From a virus: a DNA stretch of 29,984 nt. The stretch is taken from the IMG/VR virus record IMGVR_UViG_3300009149_009181, positions 1 to 29,984 of that record; one strand, written 5' to 3'. A model generated the notes under the pieces. That model was not told the origin of the DNA. It worked only from the letters and a program-made list of their open reading frames with translations, and did no database searches. Shown in pieces: positions 1 to 29,291 of this stretch; the first letter of the stretch is position 1; every line of letters begins with the position of its first letter. The translations under genes and the position numbers were made by a program.

Positions 1-1077
1 GGAACTCTTAGTCATCCGTATATTGCCACTATCTGGCTGCTTTGTTGTCCATTCTATTATTTCAGGGAGCGTAGGAGCTTCACCTAATCCTAAATAGAAC
101 TGTCCTAAAACCTCATTCTGAAACGCTCTAGGTGATAAGTCTTCTCTCTTTCTTTCAATCGCCTCACGAGTAATATAAGGAACAAGCATTTGACTAATAT
201 GGTAACCTCTTCTATAGAAACCCTCTTGTCTAGTAGGAATCCATTTACCGTTTTTAACTCCAATTCTTTTATCGAACATTTTTTTACAATAGTCACATTC
301 TACCATAAATCCAGTTTTATAATTTTCGAGTGTAAGCATCATAACCTGTCCACAATGCATACATTTTAAATGAAAATATCTTTGATCAGAAGATTCCCAT
401 AATCTTTCAAAATCTGATCCTGCGCTCTTAGGTGTACCAAAATAAAGCTCTAGCCCACTACCTGATGCTCCAAATACACTATGGGAAAGTGCCTGCTGAG
501 TATTTTCTCGTGCAGCAGTAGTCATATCTTGAATTTCATCGAAGATGCCAAAATCAATTGGCAAACCCCTCAGCCTATCACCATCTTTAGAAGTACTATC
601 TATATAAAGAATATTCTTCGTTGTATAATGTTTTTCTGTAACAGAATATGTCTTCATATCTTTTAGCTTAACTAAACAACCTTTTACGGATTCGGCTATT
701 AACCGATCGTATGGACCATTAGAATGACGTCTAGCTGTCTCAACTGCAGGGAAAGCATGCAGACCTTGTATGTTCTGATACGTACCACTACACATAAGAT
801 AAGCACTCATCACTGCAGCCGTAGTAGTAAACTCAACCTGTCTCCCTTTAGAAATAACCATTGGCATTCCATCTTTACCTGTTGCTTCAAGACAAGCATA
901 TCTATATATCTCATAAAGATAGTCTCTACCGCAATCAATCAGCTCAAACGGTTCACCTCTAATCGTTAACCGTTCTTGAGCAAATTTTACAGGATCTATC
1001 TGACCGAGATCCTTTTTCAAATCGGCAAAAAAATCAGCTGTTGATCCTGTTGGTACTGGCGTTGTTTGTTTTTTCAT
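1..1077 (-). CDS. terL: Terminase large subunit, GpA-like (partial; 3' end outside window)
   Basis: This is the ATPase/nuclease motor that packages DNA into proheads. The ORF starts at the ATG at 1077-1075 and is open for 359 codons to the window edge, so the C-terminal nuclease domain is mostly missing. Visible features are an ATPase core with an atypical Walker A around residues 76-86 (SKGRQVEFTTT), a Walker B ending FDE (D180, E181) and a coupling-type motif YFGTP near 213-217. A zinc ribbon follows (C239, C242, C261, C264), then a GKW stretch and a conserved-looking LGQFYLGLGE segment near 333-342. Ribbon, then G-W, then an FxNxVLG-like segment is the layout of the lambda gpA family (family knowledge). 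The gene follows an intrinsic terminator at 1094-1127 and has only a weak ribosome-binding site. The terminase call is confident; the GpA subgroup is less certain. Confidence 0.9.
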   Translation of the reverse strand, partial: MKKQTTPVPTGSTADFFADLKKDLGQIDPVKFAQERLTIRGEPFELIDCGRDYLYEIYRYACLEATGKDGMPMVISKGRQVEFTTTAAVMSAYLMCSGTYQNIQGLHAFPAVETARRHSNGPYDRLIAESVKGCLVKLKDMKTYSVTEKHYTTKNILYIDSTSKDGDRLRGLPIDFGIFDEIQDMTTAARENTQQALSHSVFGASGSGLELYFGTPKSAGSDFERLWESSDQRYFHLKCMHCGQVMMLTLENYKTGFMVECDYCKKMFDKRIGVKNGKWIPTRQEGFYRRGYHISQMLVPYITREAIERKREDLSPRAFQNEVLGQFYLGLGEAPTLPEIIEWTTKQPDSGNIRMTKSS

Positions 1078-1092
1078 AAAGTCTCTATATAC

Positions 1093-1128
1093 AAAAAGAG
1101 GCAAGGAGTGTTGCCCTTACCTCTTTTC
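1093..1128 (-). terminator. Intrinsic terminator between the 377-aa gene and terL
   Basis: On the minus strand, AAAAGAGG-t-AAGG pairs with CCTT-g-CCTCTTTT across a short loop and is followed by a run of five T. The stem is nearly symmetrical, so it may also stop plus-strand transcription. It would reduce read-through into terL, which may therefore depend on partial read-through or its own promoter. Confidence 0.6.
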
Positions 1129-8324: not shown

Positions 8325-9962
8325 TTAGGTTAGCTTAATTTGTGATGTTACCATCTCTCCGACCCAACTATCTCTAACTTCTTCAAAGTTTGTTGTTGCT
8401 CTCATAGTTGATCCGAAATTGTCTTTATAATCTAAAGTTGCACCAGTAAGAAGCTTCTGATAATCTTCCATTGCAGTTGCGTGATGTTCAACACCATATT
8501 TGTCTGCGATTACACTCAATGCTTGTTCTGCTACTGCGTATCTCTTATCTGCTACTGCTTTGTGTACAATCTTTCTTAAATCATTAAAATGCAGATCAAC
8601 TAAATCACTACTATAACGAACTGGGATAGCATTCTCTAAATTAGAAGCAATAAACTTCTGGAATCCTTCTTTTGAAAGGTCATAAGAAGCTGAAGTTATC
8701 TCTACTTCCTCTTCCGTACCTTCTTCTTCATTCTCTTCTTGTGCTTTCTCAGTTTCTACTCTTTTCATGAAATTCATATCTCGAACACCTGAAAAGACTG
8801 TAGGGATTAAAGCTCGTCCATCTGATGCCTCAACAGGTACCATAATATCAAACTTACCTTCAGGAGTTTGAACTGTAGCACTCATACTCAATCCTTTTTC
8901 ATGATCGCCTTCAAACTTAATAGTAGAATTTGCATAGCCGAGTTTTGTCAACTCATCTCTAACCATTCCAATAACTAAGTTGATTTCACTATCATTATAT
9001 TTAGACTCTTTTCTGATAAGAGAGTTCTCTAAGATCTCGGCTACTGGGATAAGTGCTTCTGGCATCTTAACGTTATTAGTTAAGTCCTGCTCTGCGAGAG
9101 TATGTTCATCCACTTCGATAGACCCATCACTAGCTTTAACTTCACGAGCAATATCAGTAAGGAATGTATCTCTTGATCCCATTGCAGTTCTATTCTGTTT
9201 AATCTCGTGTTGTGCTCTCTTAACATTTAAGAACTGCTGTACCCCTTCTTTAGATAGTTCAAAAATTCTATCTGCAATAGTAAATGAAGTAGGGTACAGT
9301 ACTTGATTATTAGCCATCTCTACAGGGACATAAATAATCTGTTTCCCTATCTCTGTATCGATCGAAGCGGTATATAATAATGTATCATTGTTACATACTG
9401 TATAAGCTACTGCTGAGTTTAAACCCAGACCTTTAAGCTCATCGGCTACTAAATACTCGCCTCTATTGATAAGCTCTTCCGGAACTGCTACATGAGCTAG
9501 TTTCATATCCTTCTTATCAAAAACGCTCGCTAAAACATTTGGAACTTCTGTCTTAGCTAAATCAAACTCGTCCACTTCAAGCTGAGCTTCTTTTGAAGGA
9601 ATACGTGAACCGTCTTCGAAATAATTATGACGAGAAGATTCAAGATGTTCCTGAGTATGAGAGTCTTCTTCTGTTAGAGAAACAGGTAAGAGGTCAGCAC
9701 ATACCTTCTTAAAGTTATCAACCGAACCAAGTCCTGCGAACTGATTGGCGATTTGGGATAATTCCTGACCAGTAATTACACTGTTCGGATTATCAAAAGC
9801 TTTCTTTTCCATTGCTTGTCCAACGCATCGTATGACCTGATCATAGCGATAAGTATCTGCGATGCTGGCAAAGTAATCAGATAACATTTTTGCGCTGAAG
9901 CATTTAAGATCGTTTGTCTCAATTACCTGAGCTAATGCTCTAATTCTTTCTTCGTTATTCAT
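8325..9962 (-). CDS. Hypothetical structural-type protein with internal domain duplication
   Basis: This protein is 545 aa long. The ATG at 9962 is preferred over the preceding in-frame TTG because GGAGG is then properly spaced. It was not recognised. A helical N-terminal domain of about 100 residues is followed by two copies of a beta-rich unit. One lies near 170-246 (IYVPVEMANNQVLYPTSF, then LSKEGVQQFL). The other lies near 335-440 (IMVPVEASDGRALIPTVF, then LSKEGFQKFI). Between VPVE and LSKEG the second copy carries a Glu-rich insert. A helical segment near 455-490 and a final domain rich in polar residues follow. A repeated beta unit of this kind suits a virion or scaffold protein, but that is inference. 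No Cys cluster or membrane segment was seen. Confidence 0.6.
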   Translation of the reverse strand: MNNEERIRALAQVIETNDLKCFSAKMLSDYFASIADTYRYDQVIRCVGQAMEKKAFDNPNSVITGQELSQIANQFAGLGSVDNFKKVCADLLPVSLTEEDSHTQEHLESSRHNYFEDGSRIPSKEAQLEVDEFDLAKTEVPNVLASVFDKKDMKLAHVAVPEELINRGEYLVADELKGLGLNSAVAYTVCNNDTLLYTASIDTEIGKQIIYVPVEMANNQVLYPTSFTIADRIFELSKEGVQQFLNVKRAQHEIKQNRTAMGSRDTFLTDIAREVKASDGSIEVDEHTLAEQDLTNNVKMPEALIPVAEILENSLIRKESKYNDSEINLVIGMVRDELTKLGYANSTIKFEGDHEKGLSMSATVQTPEGKFDIMVPVEASDGRALIPTVFSGVRDMNFMKRVETEKAQEENEEEGTEEEVEITSASYDLSKEGFQKFIASNLENAIPVRYSSDLVDLHFNDLRKIVHKAVADKRYAVAEQALSVIADKYGVEHHATAMEDYQKLLTGATLDYKDNFGSTMRATTNFEEVRDSWVGEMVTSQIKLT

Positions 9963-9986
9963 CAAGGCCTCCTTTATAGGGACAAT

Positions 9987-12389
9987 TTAATTATATTCGT
10001 TATGACTGAGTCTTTTAAACAAAGAGGATGTTGGTGTTAATTCTTTTCCCTCTCCTTTCGCCTTTTCAATCAATACCGTTGTTTTTTCATCGTACTTGTC
10101 AAGGTTTTCTCGGAAAGTCTCTTCAAACATCTTAGTTAACACTTCCTCTTTAACGAGTTCGGTCAAAATAGTTTCAACTTTATTGCTGTTGTCTTCTGTC
10201 GCTTGGCTCAGTTTCTTAAAGCCAAAGGAAGAAGCTACAACCTTACCAAGAACTTCTTTTTTCTTTTCTTCCCAAGCTCCTAAGATATCTGTAATCAATT
10301 CATTTACAAATTCTTTTTGAATGGGACTATCGTCAGTAAAAAACTCTTTCAGTCTTTGCATATTGCTAGCTAGCTGATTTGTTTTATCATCTATAATCTT
10401 AAATACTATTTCATTGAATTCTTTAAGCGTTGCCTGGAGAGGCTCCTCTACTTCTAGAGCTAACTCCTCCTTGTCGAGACTTATTTGTAAAGACTGGACT
10501 ATTTTATTTTTATAATCTTTTCTAATCCCATCTAAAGTCAACCGCAACATATCTTCTAATTCTTTATCATCGCCAACTTGATCTTCGTTCTTATATTTCT
10601 TTATAATCTCTCGAGCTTTTTCAGTAACAATCTTTAATTCCTCAAGAGCTTTCTCAGTAAATGGCTCTTGTGCATAAGTAGACAATCCTTTATAATTAGA
10701 CTTTGCACTAATACCTAATACATCATCAATATCATCTTCCGATAATAGTGCTTTATATGCACTAAGCGCTGACTCATGTCGGAAAAGTTCTTGTTTTAAT
10801 AATGTCATGTCAGTAGCGTCTCCACCTGTATCTATTATCTCTTGTAATTCTTTTAATTCCTCATGAAGATCTTTTACAGTCCTCTTCGTTTCTTCGTATA
10901 ATCTTTTCCCTTTTTCGTCCTGAGTCTCACGCTTCTCTTCTTGAGCGTTTTGAGATTCTTGAGTATCTTCCTCCTCAATCTCCTTTCGAACCTCTTTATC
11001 TATATATTCTTGGACAAACTCTTTTTGGCCAGTTTGAGGTAAACTCTCAACTAATCCTATTAATTGATCTTGAGTTTGTCCTCTTAAAAAAGCGATCTGC
11101 TCGTCTGTTGCACCTGCTTCTTTTAATTTACTAAATGAGTCTATTGAAGCAATGTCGCTTTTTTTTGCCTTCTCTGTTTTCTCTTTATATTTTGCCAAAT
11201 TAGCATCTTGCTTTTTTTTAATAGCTGCAAGTTCATTCTTCTGTTCATTTGAAAACTTTATGGACTGGACTGCTTCTTCGACAGCCCTTTCCGCCACGAC
11301 TATATTCCCGTCTATCGCCTTAACAAATCCGTCAGAGAACCCTTCTAAAAACCCAACCTTACCTTCTCCACCTTTAACAAAATTATTAAGTGCAATAAGA
11401 TTTGCTTTATATTTTTCATCAGACCATGCTTTTGCTAAATTAGTATAAGCGTCTTTAAGAGGTCCTTTAATTACAGATTCACTTACGTTCTCAAGATCAG
11501 TAATAATGCCTCTCCAAGTAGACAAATGATCTTGGATCGCAGCCTTCTTAACTATTGCTAATGTCTTAATAGAAGCGAATATCCCACCAACTGCCTCTGA
11601 TGCTTTTTCGTACCCTAAGTCCTTTAATACCTTTAAGGTAAGCTTCCTTGCAGAACTTCTTTGGGAAGTGAGCCCTGCTCCCATTAAGTAATCTTCTATT
11701 GCTTTGGCTGTCTCTCTCAATTCTTCTGAGCTAGAAGTTTCGTCTGGAAAAAGAGGAGTGTCATCTAAGGGATTAGGGTTATAACGAAGGACTTGCTCTT
11801 TAATCTTTTTAACATCTAAAACCTCTGACTTTTTTTTGTCTTTTCTCGAGTCCCTTTTTAAATCTCTTATAATCCCTTTATATTTTGTATCCTCATCTTC
11901 TGACGTTAACCAAGGAATATTTGGAATCCTGATTGGAAGTTTATCGGTAACATAACCAGCTACATCCATAAACTTATTAAGTGACTCTAAAACCGAAAAA
12001 GCTTTCCTAGTATAATCACGAAGGAGCTTAAGTCGAATCTCTCTTTCTTTAATCGAACTATCATTAGGCTTAACGCCTGCTTCTTTTAAGGCTTGGGCAA
12101 GAAGAACCCCACTGTCGTAATCTTTCTCTAAAGCGGATTGTGCTTCTGTGCCCCTTTTATGTAAGGATGACACTTCTTTCTTTGTCTGTGAAATTAACTT
12201 TTCAAAAGCATCGTAAGGACTAGCTGCAATCTTCTCGCTTTGAGTAGTTTTGGTTGCAAAAGTAATTCTACGAATATCCCGGGTGATGGAGGCTATGAAT
12301 GAATCCCAACAATCATTAAGCTGAGTCTTATAAGTAATAAGGCTCCCCTGTTTTAACTGGACTTTTCTTAGTAATTGTTTTGTAGTCAT
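9987..12389 (-). CDS. Very long helical/coiled-coil protein, virion block
   Basis: This 800-aa protein was not recognised. It is overwhelmingly helical and highly charged, with predicted coiled-coil-like stretches at roughly 380-420 and 480-530, the second extremely rich in Glu, Lys and Gln. A less charged segment near 240-360 may be a folded domain. A KIAASPYDAFEKLI sequence lies near 52-65 and KVVASSF near 740. There is no transmembrane run, so a classic tape-measure protein with hydrophobic segments is not clearly indicated, although length and helicity would permit it. It starts two bases after the stop of the similarly helical 485-aa gene, and the two probably act together. Confidence 0.55.
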   Translation of the reverse strand: MTTKQLLRKVQLKQGSLITYKTQLNDCWDSFIASITRDIRRITFATKTTQSEKIAASPYDAFEKLISQTKKEVSSLHKRGTEAQSALEKDYDSGVLLAQALKEAGVKPNDSSIKEREIRLKLLRDYTRKAFSVLESLNKFMDVAGYVTDKLPIRIPNIPWLTSEDEDTKYKGIIRDLKRDSRKDKKKSEVLDVKKIKEQVLRYNPNPLDDTPLFPDETSSSEELRETAKAIEDYLMGAGLTSQRSSARKLTLKVLKDLGYEKASEAVGGIFASIKTLAIVKKAAIQDHLSTWRGIITDLENVSESVIKGPLKDAYTNLAKAWSDEKYKANLIALNNFVKGGEGKVGFLEGFSDGFVKAIDGNIVVAERAVEEAVQSIKFSNEQKNELAAIKKKQDANLAKYKEKTEKAKKSDIASIDSFSKLKEAGATDEQIAFLRGQTQDQLIGLVESLPQTGQKEFVQEYIDKEVRKEIEEEDTQESQNAQEEKRETQDEKGKRLYEETKRTVKDLHEELKELQEIIDTGGDATDMTLLKQELFRHESALSAYKALLSEDDIDDVLGISAKSNYKGLSTYAQEPFTEKALEELKIVTEKAREIIKKYKNEDQVGDDKELEDMLRLTLDGIRKDYKNKIVQSLQISLDKEELALEVEEPLQATLKEFNEIVFKIIDDKTNQLASNMQRLKEFFTDDSPIQKEFVNELITDILGAWEEKKKEVLGKVVASSFGFKKLSQATEDNSNKVETILTELVKEEVLTKMFEETFRENLDKYDEKTTVLIEKAKGEGKELTPTSSLFKRLSHNEYN

Positions 12390-21978: not shown

Positions 21979-24900
21979 TTACTTTTTAGGAAAATAATTG
22001 AGCATCCCATTACCTTTTCTTCCACTCAAAAAAGTTAATTTCTTATATGATCCAAATCTCTTTGTGACAGTAGACATAATCTGAATAATCCTACCGATCT
22101 TAAAAGCTTCCTTATGTCTATTGTATTCTTCTTCGAAAACTGCAAGTTCGGCATTCCCATCTCTATCTTCTATAAAGAAATTTCTTAACGTCTTTCCGTT
22201 TCTACATTTTATTTCTTGTTTTTTAGCTTTCACGTATACCATCGTTATTACTACTTGACCTTCACCAAACTTCTCAAAATCATCTGCCAAGCTAATATAA
22301 CCACCTCGGCCCTTAGGAGGTGCGTAAGTTGCAATGAATTGATCTTCTTCATCTTTATAGGAATCAAAAATATGACTACTAACCGCCATTCCGTAAATAT
22401 CTTCTTCAAAAGCTCTTATCTCTTCATCTGTCCATTCATCTTCTCCGTACTCAAACGTTGGGTCTTCAGCTTTTTTCTTCTCAATAATCTCTTGTAATAC
22501 CTTATCCCAATTATAATCAAACGAACTTCCTTCAATAGTGTCAAGCTTATGCCTCTTCTTATGTGCTTTTAATCTTGCTCTATAGTCTTCAAAAGTCGTT
22601 TCAAGCATCTTTCGTGTAAGTCCATCACTCAAAGACTCTAGAGCATTAGCCCTTATGAGTACTTTAACAACCCGTGCATTAATCCTTTTAGTATCAACCC
22701 TATCAAAAAAATCCATTAGCCCTTTATAAGGAGCTTTCTCCATAATGTCTTCAACTGCCGCTGCTCCTACACCCTTTAATGAAGTAAGATCCCTACGAAT
22801 CTCACTCAAACTTTCACAAACAAACATGTTTCTACTCTTATTAACATCTACTGGTAAAAGCTTTATTGGATGCTTAGTACGTCGTGTCGCCCCAATATCT
22901 GACATATACATAGTTCTCTTCTTCTCGTCACTTTCTAATGACAATGCTGCTGCCCAGAACGCAGCTGGATAATTAGCCTTAAGAAACGTCATCTTATAAG
23001 AAGTTAATTCATACGAAACTGAATGGCTTTTATTGAAACCATATTCGGCAAACTTGACAATTAACCCCCAAAGTTGTTCAGCTATTTCTGTAGATACATT
23101 ATTTTTAGCACTACCTTCCATAAACTTAGATTCTTGAGCCTCCATGAGCTTTTTAATCTTCTTACCTACAGCTTTTCTTAACGTATCAGCTTCAGACATT
23201 GTAAACCCAGCAACGTCCGTAGCTATGCGCATAACCTGTTCTTGATAACACAATACTCCATATGTATCTGCTAGAATGGGCTCAGTCAATGGATGAGGAT
23301 AGGTGACTTTTTTTCTACCGTTCTTTCTGTCAGCGTATTCTTGAGTCATACCTGAGCCTAAAGGTCCTGGCCTGAATAGTGCCAATACTGCAGCGATATC
23401 GTCAATACTATTAGGTTTAGCATTCCTTAGTAGGCCTTGCATGCCTTGGCCGCTAACTTGGAAACAAGCGGAAGTCTTACCACCTCTATAAAGATTATAA
23501 GTTTTAGAAGCTCGCTTTATATCTTCGTTGGTCTCTTTCTTAAATCTTGCTTTAAGATCTTCCGTAGCATGTAAATCTTTAGCGTCATAAGCAAGTCCTT
23601 CTAAGTAGAATCTAACCTTTTTATTATGTACCTTTTTAACGTTATTTATTGCCATCTCGATAACATCTAATGACTTCAAGCCCAATACGTCTATTTTTAA
23701 ATAACCAGCATTCTCTAAAGTTGGTCCGTCATAAGCTGTAGCCACTATGTTCCCACCGGTAGCCTTATCTTTTCGAACGATCATCGGCATCGTCTCTCCT
23801 AAAGACGTAGTACTAACTATTACTCCGGCTGCATGGATACCCATCTGGCGAGTTAATCCTTCAAACTTTAATAAAGCATCTTTAAGTTTTTTCCCTTTAG
23901 GATAAGGTAAGTCTATCTCACAGTAATTTCGAAAATCTTCTGATTGATCATAAGCTTCTTGAAAAGTTATGTCAGGGTTATCATCAGGAATACTTTTACT
24001 TATCCTGTCACCAAGTCTGAAACTCTCACTTTTATCGCCACCTAATTCTAGCGACCGTACTACATCTTTTACACATGCCCTAACTTTCATCGTCCCGAAG
24101 GTTGCTATGCTTGCAACTTTATCTTCTCCATATTTGTCAATCAGATATTGCTTCACTTCATCACGTTTTGACTGACAAATATCTGAATCAATATCTGGCA
24201 TCGAAATTCTATCTTTATTAAGAAATCTAGAAAATAGCAACCCATATTTAATAGGATCAACTTTTGTAATATCAAGGAGGAATGACAATAAACATCCCGC
24301 TGCTGAACCCCTACCTACTCCTTTAGGTATCTTGTTCTTTACGCAAAACTCTAACATATCTCCTACAATTAAGAAATACTCTGTAAAGTTCATACCTTCA
24401 ATGACTTCCAACTCTTCTTTGAGCCGATCCATGTAGTCTTTTCTTTTTCCAGGGGTTTTCTTAAATACACCGCTAAGCTTAGTCTTCATCCCTTGCTGAA
24501 TCTTATAGCGAAGATATTTAGCTATCCTGTTCTTATCCTTATACCGCCCAGTCTCCTTAACTTTTCGTTCCCATTCTTCAAACTCTTTATCTTCAGGGAT
24601 CGGAAATGGAGGGATCTTATAATCTTCGCCTGCTTCAATATAAGTAGCCGGTTCACATTGATCAGCAATTCTACGTGTATTGTCAATGTATTCTTGAGGG
24701 AATTCTTTAAGGATCTCCTCTTCAGAGATCAATGGTGTAGCTTCAAAGAATAACCTTTTTTCATCATCAATAGTTCGTTTAGACTGAACTGCTAATAACA
24801 CGTGATGAAACTCTCTGTCTTCAGGATAAACGTAATGTGAATCAAGCGCAACTACTATAGGCGTTTTTGTCTTTTTGGCAAGCGCTTCTATCTTTTTATT

Positions 24901-25470
24901 CATTACCTTTTGGTCTTCACCAATTAAATAAGTAGGCTGAACTTCAAGATAAAACTCATCAAAGATATCTTTGTATGTTTCGACTAAAGTTATTGCTTCT
25001 GATTCTAATCCGTTATTTAGAAGTACGGGGATAGTACCACCTAAACATGCACTAGTCGCTATAACACCTTTCCCATGCTTACTTAAAAGACCTAGGTCTA
25101 CACGAGGTAATACTCTGTCGTAAACTGATATTGATCCTGTTTTGTAAGCTTCGAAATTTAGCTTTAATAAATTCTGGTATCCTTTTTTATTCTTAGCCAA
25201 AAGAACCAAATGTCTATTTGGCTCTCCTTTAACTCTTTTTGTTCTATCGTCTACACAATATATCTCTATCCCTGGAATTATTCTAACACCATGCTTCTTC
25301 CCCTCATTATAAAGAGACAGAACAGCACTCATACTACCATGGTCTGTTACCGCGATTGCGTCGTAATCTAATTCTTTAGAACGTTTAATTATATCTGGAA
25401 TTCGACTGAACCCGTCAAGTGGAGAGCCTGTTTCTGTATGAAGATGAAGGTTCACAAAAGTGCATGCCAT
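21979..25470 (-). CDS. dnaE: DNA polymerase III alpha subunit, DnaE type
   Basis: This 1163-aa replicative polymerase is close to bacterial DnaE length. A PHP domain (about 1-290) has HLHTE (9-13), TDHGSM (42-47), GIEIY (67-71), SACLGG (140-145) and DSHYVYPEDREFHH (210-223). The polymerase core has GRGSAAGC (386-393), PDIDSDIC with the metal-binding acids D426 and D428 by alignment to E. coli D401/D403, and the third acid D594 in KIDVLGL. GIHAAGVIVS (544-553) also matches. A helix-hairpin-helix-type segment (LKGVGAAAVEDI) and an OB-fold near the C-terminus follow. All catalytic acids appear present, so it should be active. The start overlaps the upstream stop as TAATG. No separate proofreading exonuclease is seen here. 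Confidence 0.96.
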   Translation of the reverse strand: MACTFVNLHLHTETGSPLDGFSRIPDIIKRSKELDYDAIAVTDHGSMSAVLSLYNEGKKHGVRIIPGIEIYCVDDRTKRVKGEPNRHLVLLAKNKKGYQNLLKLNFEAYKTGSISVYDRVLPRVDLGLLSKHGKGVIATSACLGGTIPVLLNNGLESEAITLVETYKDIFDEFYLEVQPTYLIGEDQKVMNKKIEALAKKTKTPIVVALDSHYVYPEDREFHHVLLAVQSKRTIDDEKRLFFEATPLISEEEILKEFPQEYIDNTRRIADQCEPATYIEAGEDYKIPPFPIPEDKEFEEWERKVKETGRYKDKNRIAKYLRYKIQQGMKTKLSGVFKKTPGKRKDYMDRLKEELEVIEGMNFTEYFLIVGDMLEFCVKNKIPKGVGRGSAAGCLLSFLLDITKVDPIKYGLLFSRFLNKDRISMPDIDSDICQSKRDEVKQYLIDKYGEDKVASIATFGTMKVRACVKDVVRSLELGGDKSESFRLGDRISKSIPDDNPDITFQEAYDQSEDFRNYCEIDLPYPKGKKLKDALLKFEGLTRQMGIHAAGVIVSTTSLGETMPMIVRKDKATGGNIVATAYDGPTLENAGYLKIDVLGLKSLDVIEMAINNVKKVHNKKVRFYLEGLAYDAKDLHATEDLKARFKKETNEDIKRASKTYNLYRGGKTSACFQVSGQGMQGLLRNAKPNSIDDIAAVLALFRPGPLGSGMTQEYADRKNGRKKVTYPHPLTEPILADTYGVLCYQEQVMRIATDVAGFTMSEADTLRKAVGKKIKKLMEAQESKFMEGSAKNNVSTEIAEQLWGLIVKFAEYGFNKSHSVSYELTSYKMTFLKANYPAAFWAAALSLESDEKKRTMYMSDIGATRRTKHPIKLLPVDVNKSRNMFVCESLSEIRRDLTSLKGVGAAAVEDIMEKAPYKGLMDFFDRVDTKRINARVVKVLIRANALESLSDGLTRKMLETTFEDYRARLKAHKKRHKLDTIEGSSFDYNWDKVLQEIIEKKKAEDPTFEYGEDEWTDEEIRAFEEDIYGMAVSSHIFDSYKDEEDQFIATYAPPKGRGGYISLADDFEKFGEGQVVITMVYVKAKKQEIKCRNGKTLRNFFIEDRDGNAELAVFEEEYNRHKEAFKIGRIIQIMSTVTKRFGSYKKLTFLSGRKGNGMLNYFPKK

Positions 25471-25679
25471 TAATCAGACTCACCACGAATAAATTCTTCA
25501 ACTTGAGGTAAAACTTTTTCTTTTACGTCATCCATAACACTTTTAAGTAAGGATTGGTCAAGCTTTTCACTTATATGTGACGGAAGATTAAAATCACCTT
25601 GACTAGTAAAGATTTTTGCAATAACCCATTTACCTTCATTGTCCTTTTTCCAAAGGAGATTAGAAACATAAACATGCAT
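25470..25679 (-). CDS. Small hypothetical protein between trigger factor and dnaE
   Basis: This 69-aa protein was not recognised. It begins MHVYVSNLLWKKDNEGKWVI, followed by a Phe/Ser/Pro-rich middle and a helical, acidic end (VLPQVEEFIRGESD). Both ends overlap neighbours as TAATG, which argues for a real, coupled gene. An accessory role to the polymerase is possible from position, but nothing in the sequence shows it. Confidence 0.55.
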   Translation of the reverse strand: MHVYVSNLLWKKDNEGKWVIAKIFTSQGDFNLPSHISEKLDQSLLKSVMDDVKEKVLPQVEEFIRGESD

Positions 25680-27034
25680 TATAATTCCACCTCTGTTACC
25701 TTTACTTCTTCTTTTTCTGTTATTGCTTCAATGGTTGCCTTTTCCTTAAGAAATTCAAGCGTTAATTTCAATGCCAAGTTTTTCTTAATAGCTGCAACTA
25801 ATCCAACATTAGCTTTTATCTCGTCTACAGGAACATTTCGTCCGGATGCCTGCATTGCTAACTCTGCATCTAACTGTTCTTCTGTAGTTTCGATTTTTTC
25901 TTTCTCTGTAATAGCGTCTAATATATATCTGACTTTTGACTCTCGACTTACTAATCCTTCGTGCTGATCATTAAAAGCTTTTCTAGTCAAACGGGATTTC
26001 TGGAAAAAAGCTTTCTCGTCCATACCAGTCTGCTGACAAACTTTTTGCAATTCTTTAGCTAAAAGATCCTGCATTAGTAGCTCTGGTATGGGGGTAACTG
26101 TACTAGTGATAAGTAACTCATTAAATATCTTATCATCAATCAATGCCTCGTTCTGTTGCTTCTTATTGCTGATGAGATCGTCTTTGATTTTGTTTCTAGC
26201 ATCAATCAGGTTATTATAACCTATTTTTTGAGCAAAAGCATCATTGACTTCACTTAACTTCTGTTCTGCGATCTTTCTCAACGTAACTGTAAAAATAGCA
26301 TCTTTAGAAGCTAGCTCTTTCTTTAGATAGTTCTCAGGGAACTTAACTGTTACTTCTTTCTTTTCGTCAATCTTCATCCCTATAAGCTGTTCTTCAAATC
26401 CTTGGATAAACTGACCCGAGCCAATTGTCAATGGGAAAACTGCATACGTCCCATCTGGCTTTTTAGTAGAGCCACCTTCAAATGGTTGCCCGTCTACAAT
26501 ACCGTCAAACTCAATATGAGCAATGTCAGAATTCTGAACTGCTCTATCTGTTATCTCGATCTCTTCAGCATAAGTTTCTCTCATCCTTTGGATTACAGCT
26601 TCTATTTCTTTATCTTCTACTTCTATTGGAGTATACTGAACTTTAATCCCTTCGTATTCACCTAACTCTACTGTGGGTGCTACCTCTGCATTTACTGTAA
26701 CAATAATTGGGTTATCTCCACGTAATCCATCAGCATCAACAGTATTGAGCCCGACGACATTAAGAGTCAAGTCCTCTTTAATACCTCTATCTAAAATATC
26801 ATTTAAGAGAGGTGTATATAATTCTTGTAAATCTAAAAAGTTAGGTTTGTTTTCTGCAAGCGAACGAGGAACGTTCTGAGGACGAAATCCGGAAAAATGT
26901 TTTTGGAGTAATGCTTTATTATCCTTAGCAAACTTTTGCCAAATTTTTTCTTTAGCTTTTTTGATTGCCTCTACATCTTCTTCAACTATGACCACCTTTA
27001 CCGGCTGTGACATTACCTCTTTTGATACTTTCAT
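25679..27034 (-). CDS. tig: Trigger factor (ribosome-associated chaperone/PPIase), phage-encoded
   Basis: This 451-aa protein has all three trigger-factor domains in order. The N-terminal ribosome-binding domain (about 1-130) carries a changed signature: GFRPQNVP at 49-56 where bacteria have GFRKGKVP. The FKBP-type PPIase domain (about 166-253) has DGIVDGQPFEGG, then IGSGQFIQGFEEQLIGMKID, then VTVKFPENY. The helical C-terminal substrate-binding domain follows (about 257-440). Trigger factor binds nascent chains at the ribosome exit. In a phage it may fold virion or replication proteins; the altered ribosome motif could mean weak or absent ribosome binding. The first 53 bases overlap the kinase gene. 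M1 has an AGGGAT site at good spacing; M8 is an alternative start. It is unlikely to be host flanking DNA because it is embedded in a phage operon. Confidence 0.9.
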   Translation of the reverse strand: MKVSKEVMSQPVKVVIVEEDVEAIKKAKEKIWQKFAKDNKALLQKHFSGFRPQNVPRSLAENKPNFLDLQELYTPLLNDILDRGIKEDLTLNVVGLNTVDADGLRGDNPIIVTVNAEVAPTVELGEYEGIKVQYTPIEVEDKEIEAVIQRMRETYAEEIEITDRAVQNSDIAHIEFDGIVDGQPFEGGSTKKPDGTYAVFPLTIGSGQFIQGFEEQLIGMKIDEKKEVTVKFPENYLKKELASKDAIFTVTLRKIAEQKLSEVNDAFAQKIGYNNLIDARNKIKDDLISNKKQQNEALIDDKIFNELLITSTVTPIPELLMQDLLAKELQKVCQQTGMDEKAFFQKSRLTRKAFNDQHEGLVSRESKVRYILDAITEKEKIETTEEQLDAELAMQASGRNVPVDEIKANVGLVAAIKKNLALKLTLEFLKEKATIEAITEKEEVKVTEVEL

Positions 27035-27542
27035 TTTTATCCCTTTTTATTAATAGTGCTAGTGATTTTGTTTGCTCAGTCGATTCTTCCATCGAACCAT
27101 TTGTATCTACAAAATATTCTGCAAGCGTTAATGTTTCAACAATCCCTAGCTTCTCGTCTCTTTTTTCATCGCTAAGAATCTCTTCGAGAGATTTATTATC
27201 TCTTCCCATTAATCTTTCTCTTCTGCTTTTATCACAAATTTCTATCTTAGTCACCGTAATATTTTCTTTACCGAAATCCTTTTGTAATTCTTCTATTAAA
27301 AAGGACTCCCTAATCCCAGAGATAACGCAGTTTCCGTCAATCTTCGCTTTAATTTTTTTATAAAGCCACATAGGATCTTCTTGGTTTTCAGTCTCTAACT
27401 GAAGAGTCTTCCTATCCTTAGAATTAGTAACCTCTCTTACAATGTCACTAACTTCAAATACAGGGAATCCAAGAGCCTTAGCTAACTCTTTGGCTACAAG
27501 ACCTTTCCCACCACCCATCATTGCAACAACACAAATAATCAT
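26982..27542 (-). CDS. P-loop nucleotide kinase, adenylate-kinase-like superfamily
   Basis: This 186-aa protein has an N-terminal P-loop AMMGGGKGL (7-15), in which the usual Ser/Thr after the Lys is Gly, as in some archaeal adenylate-kinase-like (UPF0200) proteins. Further on are FEVSDIVREV (29-38, the nucleotide-binding SD/R motif), NCVISGIRES (70-79, a Walker-B-like strand and Arg) and SRRERLMGRD (109-118), resembling the lid region. It probably phosphorylates a deoxynucleoside or nucleoside monophosphate, which fits the neighbouring purine-salvage and dUTPase genes. The exact substrate cannot be read. Its start follows the upstream TAA directly with GGAG six bases away. Its last 53 bases overlap the trigger-factor gene, a longer overlap than elsewhere. 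Confidence 0.7.
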   Translation of the reverse strand: MIICVVAMMGGGKGLVAKELAKALGFPVFEVSDIVREVTNSKDRKTLQLETENQEDPMWLYKKIKAKIDGNCVISGIRESFLIEELQKDFGKENITVTKIEICDKSRRERLMGRDNKSLEEILSDEKRDEKLGIVETLTLAEYFVDTNGSMEESTEQTKSLALLIKRDKNESIKRGNVTAGKGGHS

Positions 27543-29291
27543 TTATACTCCAAAAGAAGTTTGAAGGTCTACAACTGGGTTACTCAGCTCTCTTCTTAAA
27601 AATAAAAGATCTTTAAGTAAAACGAGATATTTTGAATAAAGATCTTTTGTAAAAGCATCGCTCTTTACTCTTTTAAGGAACTCTCCTTCTCTTAATTTCC
27701 AAGTATAATTACAAGATATGCAAGTAAAATCTCCCTGTCCAGCCAATTTAACTTCGAGCTCTTCGAGCTTAGCCTTACATTGTGGACAACTATTTCTTAA
27801 TTTACCCATCCATCTATTAGTCACTTGATGCATATATTCTGTAATATGTTCCTTTTCGCCTTTATAGTCTCTTGGAAGAGGGACATTAACTGAATCTCCA
27901 ACATCACTAAATCCGGCTTTATTAGAACGAACTTCTAAATTAAATCCATTAACGCGTCTCTCATCGTAATTACTTAACACCTGTTTATTACGCTTACTAA
28001 TCCCTACTCCGTCAAACATCGTTGTAGAGCCACTATTTGATCCTGCAATTAAAGATCTCTCGTATCCAATTCTATACTGAAATGTCAAATTATTTTTAGC
28101 TTCAACTGCATCATATACACCGTCACTCCAGGTATTGTTGTGCTCTATTGCTGAATCTCCAAAAGGACAACCCTCTTCTTTAAGTTGTTCAAATTTGCGT
28201 TCCCAATTTTTCCCTAAATAAAACTTTCTTCCACAATCGAGACAAACAGCATAAGGATAAGAGTATCCTGCTTCTTCCGCAATTTTTAATCCAAGCGACC
28301 TGTTTGAGCTATCTATCTTACGTCTACGTTCTGTTTCATTCATCTGATCAATATCTTCTTCAGAATAAATAACATCACCTGGGACCAAAAGATCAAACAT
28401 CTCAGCTTCTTTTACAGGATCTTTGAATATCCCCGTTTTCTTTGAACTCCAATTCTTAGCGATAGCTACTTTTATATCAGTAATTGCATCTTTCAACTTA
28501 CCTTGTAGTAACTGAAGTTCGGGATTTTCTTTTGAATAGATTATCTCATTAAGAGTAATCTCTTTATCCTTATCAGAAGTATTGCCTATAGCTCCAGATA
28601 AAGACAATACTTCGGAATTGTAGAAGGATCCTCTCTCCTTAGTAGACCCGAGGACACCTTCAATCGAAATATTCTTCTTTGAAAACCGAGTAATAATGCC
28701 TGTCTCTTCTGTACAAAAAATACAAGTAAGTAACTCTTCATTATCCTTACTGCTTTTTTCTATAGTGAAGCGGTTACAATGAGGACAAGCATACTCTTTG
28801 AATTGCGTACGTTTTCTTCTATCTTTATCATATCCACCTTTAACTCTATAGTAAATATGATCCATAACCCACGAATTAAAACACTTCAGAGATATTTCTC
28901 CATTATCTTCTTTGTGAAATTTCTTTCCGTCTTGTTCATAGAAGTCATTGCTTTGATAGATTTCGACTGACATCTTCCCACATTCTTTACAGGAAAGACT
29001 ATGCCCATTTGGAGCAAAGCTATCATAAGCTTTATTAAGACCTAATTTTGAACTGGTGATTATGTCGCTGAACAAATCTTGCTTAGTCTGAAAATCAGTA
29101 TTAACCCTAGACTCAACAATGCCAGCAACAATAGATACATATGATACTAAAAACTCTTCTATTGTAAAGTTTGCCTTAAACTCTTCAAACTCCTCAACAG
29201 TATATATTTTTTTGGCAGCTTCTCTAATTGGGACAATCTTGTCCTTAAATCCTCTCTCGTAAGAAGGAACAATTTGGCTCAGAGAATTCAT
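27543..29291 (-). CDS. Zinc-ribbon-rich protein with sigma-region-2-like segment
   Basis: This 582-aa protein has at least four Cys pairs or ribbons: CKEC (101-104), CPHC (169-172) with CIFC (190-193), CLDC (340-343), and CPQC with CISC near the C-terminus. Residues 44-100 and 136-165 read like sigma70 region 2: EEFLVSYVSIVAGIVESRVN, then DLFSDIITSSKLGLNKAYDS, then, past a Cys-containing insert, FNSWVMDHIYYRVKGGYDKD and RRKR. Compare the usual DLxQEGxxGLxxAxxxF and FxxYAxxxIRxxI. A clear region 4 is not evident. It follows a promoter-bearing gap and heads the replication operon, a fitting place for an early-expressed regulator. A virion RNA-polymerase partner or zinc-binding structural protein remain alternatives; similarity to sigma was judged by eye. 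Confidence 0.5.
   Translation of the reverse strand: MNSLSQIVPSYERGFKDKIVPIREAAKKIYTVEEFEEFKANFTIEEFLVSYVSIVAGIVESRVNTDFQTKQDLFSDIITSSKLGLNKAYDSFAPNGHSLSCKECGKMSVEIYQSNDFYEQDGKKFHKEDNGEISLKCFNSWVMDHIYYRVKGGYDKDRRKRTQFKEYACPHCNRFTIEKSSKDNEELLTCIFCTEETGIITRFSKKNISIEGVLGSTKERGSFYNSEVLSLSGAIGNTSDKDKEITLNEIIYSKENPELQLLQGKLKDAITDIKVAIAKNWSSKKTGIFKDPVKEAEMFDLLVPGDVIYSEEDIDQMNETERRRKIDSSNRSLGLKIAEEAGYSYPYAVCLDCGRKFYLGKNWERKFEQLKEEGCPFGDSAIEHNNTWSDGVYDAVEAKNNLTFQYRIGYERSLIAGSNSGSTTMFDGVGISKRNKQVLSNYDERRVNGFNLEVRSNKAGFSDVGDSVNVPLPRDYKGEKEHITEYMHQVTNRWMGKLRNSCPQCKAKLEELEVKLAGQGDFTCISCNYTWKLREGEFLKRVKSDAFTKDLYSKYLVLLKDLLFLRRELSNPVVDLQTSFGV

Follow-up and report, generated by a model that had tools for sequence, protein, structure and literature searches.

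A predicted complete trigger factor encoded beside dnaE in a phage genome fragment, with an altered docking loop

Introduction

Trigger factor (TF) is a bacterial helper at the ribosome exit, where it folds new proteins. The published signature of its docking loop is GFRxGxxP (PMC11725819, PMC9527764). This loop is sensitive to change, because binding to the ribosome drops strongly in E. coli when FRK is replaced by AAA; the loop thus carries the binding (PMC11725819). The chloroplast TF reads GFRPG in this loop and is reported to bind ribosomes (PMC9527764). Among phages, huge phages carry IF1, IF3, EF-G/Tu/Ts, bS21, L7/L12 and peptide deformylase (PMC7162821). No TF was found in the main texts of that survey, two jumbo-phage reviews and a phage-chaperone paper, and searches of the open-access literature yielded no description of a phage TF gene family. 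In the literature searchable here, phages are known to bring many translation factors, but not the exit-tunnel chaperone.

In this study, we analyzed a TF-like gene in a DNA stretch of 29,984 nucleotides from the IMG/VR virus record IMGVR_UViG_3300009149_009181, hereafter the window.

Results

Domains and predicted fold of the window protein

A 451-aa open reading frame (ORF) starting from ATG was called on the minus strand of the window, and its domains were assigned as follows.

25679..27034, minus strand: trigger factor gene, 451 aa (Pfam Trigger_N, FKBP_C and Trigger_C; TIGR00115, 250 bits; AlphaFold2 model with PDB match)
26582..27034, minus strand: ribosome-binding domain Trigger_N, aa 1-151 (Pfam, 55 bits)
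26279..26545, minus strand: FKBP-type PPIase domain FKBP_C, aa 164-252 (Pfam, 55 bits; pocket residues kept)
25745..26203, minus strand: C-terminal chaperone domain Trigger_C, aa 278-430 (Pfam, 50 bits)

The three domains were in order and each scored above its curated Pfam cut-off. The protein also passed the TIGR00115 'tig' equivalog of NCBIfam with 250 bits against a cut-off of 180.2. A lone FKBP domain or SlyD was ruled out as the identity of the ORF by the Pfam domain scan. When an alignment of phage and bacterial relatives was used as the input, AlphaFold2 gave a confident model of a full-length TF (mean pLDDT 94, pTM 0.84). The best PDB matches of this model were E. coli TF entries, with 1w26 at the top (Foldseek E values of 4e-23 and 7e-23), and one of them was TF on a translating ribosome. 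Superposition on 1w26 gave a Z of 21.2 and an rmsd of 9.1 over 413 residues. The identity to the bacterial TFs examined was 33% or lower. Taken together, these findings identify the protein as a member of the trigger factor family. An earlier note, made from the letters of the window, had claimed a complete three-domain TF and had proposed a profile search and a structure prediction; the claim was borne out by both, since all three domains rather than just an FKBP domain were found and the predicted fold was that of TF.

No match to the window TF was obtained in the BFVD viral structure library at E ≤ 0.001. The PHROG family phrog_26774, labeled 'unknown function', matched all of the 73 TFs tested, bacterial and phage, and can now be named as trigger factor.

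Gene context in the window

The source of the window is a virus record, and the window is a phage fragment. Its phage genes, all on the minus strand, encode the terminase large subunit, a DnaG-type primase, a RecA/UvsX-like recombinase, RusA, SSB, a dCTP deaminase-like protein and DnaE. The genes that bear on the position of TF are given below.

26982..27542, minus strand: kinase-like gene overlapping the TF start (AAA_17/AAA_18; counterpart upstream of TF in L177, the closest relative)
25470..25679, minus strand: 69-aa ORF between TF and dnaE, overlapping both (ORF and sequence)
21979..25470, minus strand: dnaE, DNA polymerase III alpha, downstream neighbor of TF (Pfam and NCBIfam; same order in 49 of 53 loci)
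1..1104, minus strand: terminase large subunit, running off the window (phrog_675, 4.9e-45; GpA_ATPase; spacing from TF as in relatives)

The TF start lies inside the end of the kinase-like gene, the TF stop overlaps the start of the 69-aa ORF, and the stop of the latter overlaps the dnaE start. Genes that are translationally coupled are laid out in this way, and the arrangement agrees with the co-oriented phage operon near dnaE that had been described in the earlier note, with the 69-aa ORF in between; this small ORF had no Pfam match. Host genes, which would flank TF in an assembly chimera, are absent from its flanks. At 8325-12389 and 27543-29291, large ORFs of 546, 800 and 582 aa were also observed, for which neither Pfam nor PHROG gave a match.

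Bacterial tig genes in phage records

Contamination was common among the public TF matches. Detailed inspection of four TF loci from deposited phage records (L002-L005) showed clpX, and mostly clpP too, beside the gene; they are bacterial loci and were rejected as known phage TFs. Three of these deposits, MT835986.1, OR844993.1 and CAKLQH020000005.1 (L002, L004 and L005), carry bacterial tig with clpX, and clpP in two, as host contamination. Many TF matches in IMG/VR were likewise bacterial. Four further candidates (L172-L175) were rejected as FKBP-type proteins without a GFR motif, several of them having lipoprotein-like starts. Unlike the bacterial contaminants, the window TF locus has no clpP/clpX-type layout. 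From the phage hallmark genes and the gene order common to other phages, we conclude that the window TF is a phage gene and not host contamination.

Related trigger factors in large phages

When IMG/VR was searched with the window TF alone or DnaE alone, no relatives were obtained; the relatives came from patterns built on alignments. With these, about 50 further phage contigs carrying a diverged TF were found, many of them 190-480 kb long. In the second scan, dnaE was downstream of TF on the same strand in 49 of 53 TF loci, a number that includes a few near-identical contigs, and in these 49 the best DnaE match began 0.6-4.0 kb beyond the TF stop. Exactly one TF was present in each of the 26 records tested, and ribosomal protein L23 was found in none of them. 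The phrog_675 terminase family was detected in 18 of the 26, always on the strand of TF and downstream of it by 24.7-31.4 kb (median 26.9); the corresponding distance in the window is 25.9 kb.

The closest relative, L177, has the order kinase-like gene, TF, DnaE, dCTP deaminase-like gene and SSB, and its DnaE is 45% identical to that of the window over the best segment. Among the available relatives of this phage, none was closer than about 32%. Close pairs of phage TFs gave dN/dS values of about 0.05-0.12 by the Nei-Gojobori method, synonymous sites being near saturation in most pairs; the related phage TFs are under purifying selection. In 67 of the 80 best DnaE loci, no TF was found in the DNA fetched, which for some stops short of the far upstream region. 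Phages with DnaE but without TF thus exist, so that only particular lineages have the TF trait.

In one group of relatives (clade C), the genes on either side of TF encode a DnaB-like helicase and a PD-(D/E)XK nuclease, and dnaE is not its neighbor. In the clade C records, matches to sheath (PF04984) and to the phrog_15 terminase were weak or absent, and the phage status of this clade rests on the IMG/VR classification, the replication genes and the absence of L23. A NusG-like gene was observed near the primase in the TF-holding module of clade C phages (L042:15182-15640; a similar ORF in L044). Another relative encodes a full DnaJ with J domain, zinc domain and C-terminal domain (L008:15854-16888), and a similar ORF is present at L006:15689-16708; hence, TF is not the only chaperone gene of these phages. 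Split matches were observed in some long ORFs, 1542-1586 aa for DnaE and 916-1337 aa for the terminase (L007:10594-15354, L177:7160-11788 and the records of L050, L056 and L063), which suggests inteins or other in-frame inserts.

Phylogeny

The window and L177 TFs formed a supported pair (100/99), to which clade C (L018, L038, L042, L044 and L045) was the sister (97/95). Support was also obtained for clade A (L006 and others) and for clade B, which had 39 rows in the large tree, and the window TF was on a long terminal branch. In the large tree, a single clade of all phage TFs, imposed as a constraint, had a likelihood 8.96 higher and was not rejected (p-AU 0.66). A smaller careful tree favored at least two phage TF groups and placed the window, L177 and clade C beside Bacillota (97/97), the bacterial sampling for the trees being mostly Bacillota and Pseudomonadota, with Bacteroidota TFs left out. 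The window TF fell inside no bacterial genus of this sampling; such a placement, with host genes alongside, would by the earlier note have spoken against its claim. The best bacterial identity of the window TF was 33%.

The docking loop

The docking loop and a preceding insertion were located from the alignment.

26867..26890, minus strand: docking loop GFRPQNVP, aa 49-56 (E. coli 43-50; alignment columns)
26900..26917, minus strand: 6-aa insertion KALLQK, aa 40-45, just before the docking loop (alignment; predicted short extra helix at aa 40-46)

The window loop does not fit the GFRxGxxP consensus, from which only Gly47 deviates, being changed to Gln; G43, F44, R45 and P50 are kept. The residue counts that follow are biased, the search patterns having contained the docking motif. 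At E. coli position 46, 27 of the 52 bacterial rows have K and 22 have P, which makes Lys46 to Pro an ordinary change. Position 47 is G in all 52 bacterial and in 48 of 50 phage rows. At position 48, K is found in 49 of 52 bacterial rows, in 6/6 of clade A and in 36/39 of clade B; it is absent from all seven members of the subclade of the window (H, H, H, N, N, T and C), the window having Asn. F44, R45 and P50 are kept in all seven, and R45 in every bacterial and phage row. Among the 19 TF loci found solely via the FKBP-domain pattern, R45 was present in all and F44 was replaced in three. Most other phage TFs keep GFRxGK, and the loop of L177 reads SFRKGHVP, with Gly43 changed to Ser. The 6-aa insertion was observed only in the window among the TFs aligned; L038 and L045 have one inserted residue there.

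The earlier note had pointed to the change of the signature to GFRPQNVP with Phe-Arg kept and the 'basic run lost'. The former is correct, but the latter was overstated, P being so frequent at position 46. Nor is it supported as a hint of lost docking: Lys46 to Pro is ordinary, the chloroplast TF with GFRPG is reported to bind ribosomes, and Phe44, Arg45 and Pro50 are kept. The unusual features are Gln in place of Gly47, Asn in place of Lys48 and the 6-aa insertion, the last of which the earlier reader had missed.

The PPIase pocket

The TF PPIase pocket residues F168, F177, I195, F198, F217, Y221 and F233 were all identical in the window by alignment columns. In clade B, F177, F217 and Y221 were mostly lost, and F198 and F233 were kept. 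This suggests that clade B TFs may have weak or absent isomerase activity and are possibly isomerase-dead. In clade B loci including L034, L050 and L056, F44, R45 and K48 are kept, these three pocket residues are mostly lost, and the final Pro of the loop is often gone.

Discussion

We presume, with about even confidence, that the window TF is a phage co-translational chaperone and PPIase made with the replication genes, whose docking is retuned rather than abolished. The phage would make TF together with its replication proteins, the kinase-like gene, TF, the small ORF and dnaE overlapping one another, and the co-expression with DnaE would be early, judging from gene position. During takeover, nascent phage proteins would then be received by a chaperone and prolyl isomerase that the phage itself supplies. 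The protein may act at the exit of the ribosome by way of the Phe44-Arg45...Pro50 contacts that it has kept. Lys48 is lost in the subclade, and this loss, together with Gly47 to Gln and the 6-aa insertion in the window, may retune how tightly the protein binds the ribosome of a particular host, or how well it fits there. Docking is expected to be retuned and not dead because FRK/AAA shows that the loop carries binding, yet the chloroplast TF tolerates a changed loop. Counting against retained docking, Gly47, the same in all 52 bacterial rows, is changed here, Lys48 is lost, the insertion could move the loop, and the loop does not tolerate the FRK/AAA change well in E. coli. Action on virion proteins, which the earlier note had raised, is less likely than an early role because TF sits among replication genes in the lineages found.

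The changes of the loop could also be read as relaxed docking constraint in a soluble, off-ribosome chaperone and prolyl isomerase that serves phage proteins, for example enzymes of replication or intermediates of assembly. Gly47 to Gln, Lys48 to Asn and the insertion in the window, Gly43 to Ser in L177, the loss of Lys48 across the subclade and the kept PPIase pocket are consistent with this reading; however, the retention of Phe44, Arg45 and Pro50 by the whole subclade of seven is not what relaxed constraint would predict, and the N-terminal domain is still above the Pfam cut-off, so we regard it as rather doubtful. That the main effect is on the host, through competition with host TF at the exit tunnel or an altered TF-ClpXP partnership that weakens or redirects host proteostasis, appears unlikely. 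A full-length TF with a ribosome-binding domain would be made during infection, phages redirect translation (PMC7162821), and bacterial TF cooperates with ClpXP (PMC7804408). Yet the sequence has no inhibitor mark, and the intact chaperone and isomerase parts exceed the needs of a decoy. Blocking tig would also gain little, the gene being dispensable in E. coli under normal growth.

A decaying gene with no present role in the window phage would account for the long terminal branch and the odd docking loop, but it is very unlikely in view of the open frame, the kept pocket residues, the conserved position and the purifying selection in related phage TFs. Finally, an assembly artifact that fused host and phage DNA, or a host gene acquired only recently, might be suspected from the frequent contamination described above. 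Overlapping phage genes on both sides of TF, the low identity to bacterial TFs and the supported pairing with the phage L177 make this extremely improbable, and we consider it already refuted because the same gene order is common to other, distant phages.

Returning to a chaperone that acts co-translationally for the phage, we tentatively offer a broader possibility: a conserved, phage-specific TF family in the replication module of large phages might occupy the ribosome exit in infection, with lineages keeping different halves of the function. Clade B would keep the docking basics with much of its pocket lost, and the subclade of the window would keep the pocket with its docking loop rebuilt, so that co-translational folding might be under the control of such phages themselves, in a form suited to displacing or bypassing host TF. 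The constant place of TF beside dnaE in very distant large phages points to control of nascent-chain folding as a core element of the replication program, and the natural changes of loop and pocket are a ready series for testing which parts of TF matter on the ribosome.

Compared with bacterial Tig (TIGR00115; E. coli 1w26 and 2vrh), the window protein has the same three-domain order, fold and pocket residues, as well as Phe-Arg and the final Pro of the loop, whereas it differs in its low identity (33% at most), Gly47 to Gln, Lys48 to Asn and the 6-aa insertion; furthermore, it is encoded beside dnaE in a phage, whereas bacterial tig lies beside clpP-clpX. Chloroplast TIG1 (7zgi; PMC9527764) resembles it in that the loop departs from the bacterial form, and TIG1 is reported to be still ribosome-binding; however, TIG1 is a plant and algal organelle protein and a weaker structural match (Z 14.5 over 288 residues). 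The TFs of large phages (clades A, B and C and L177) are window-like in architecture, in their one copy per record and in their place among replication genes. Of these, clades A and B share the TF-dnaE order with the window but mostly keep Lys48, and much of the pocket is lost in clade B. Like the translation genes of huge phages (PMC7162821), the window TF is a phage copy of a host factor that acts on or near the ribosome.
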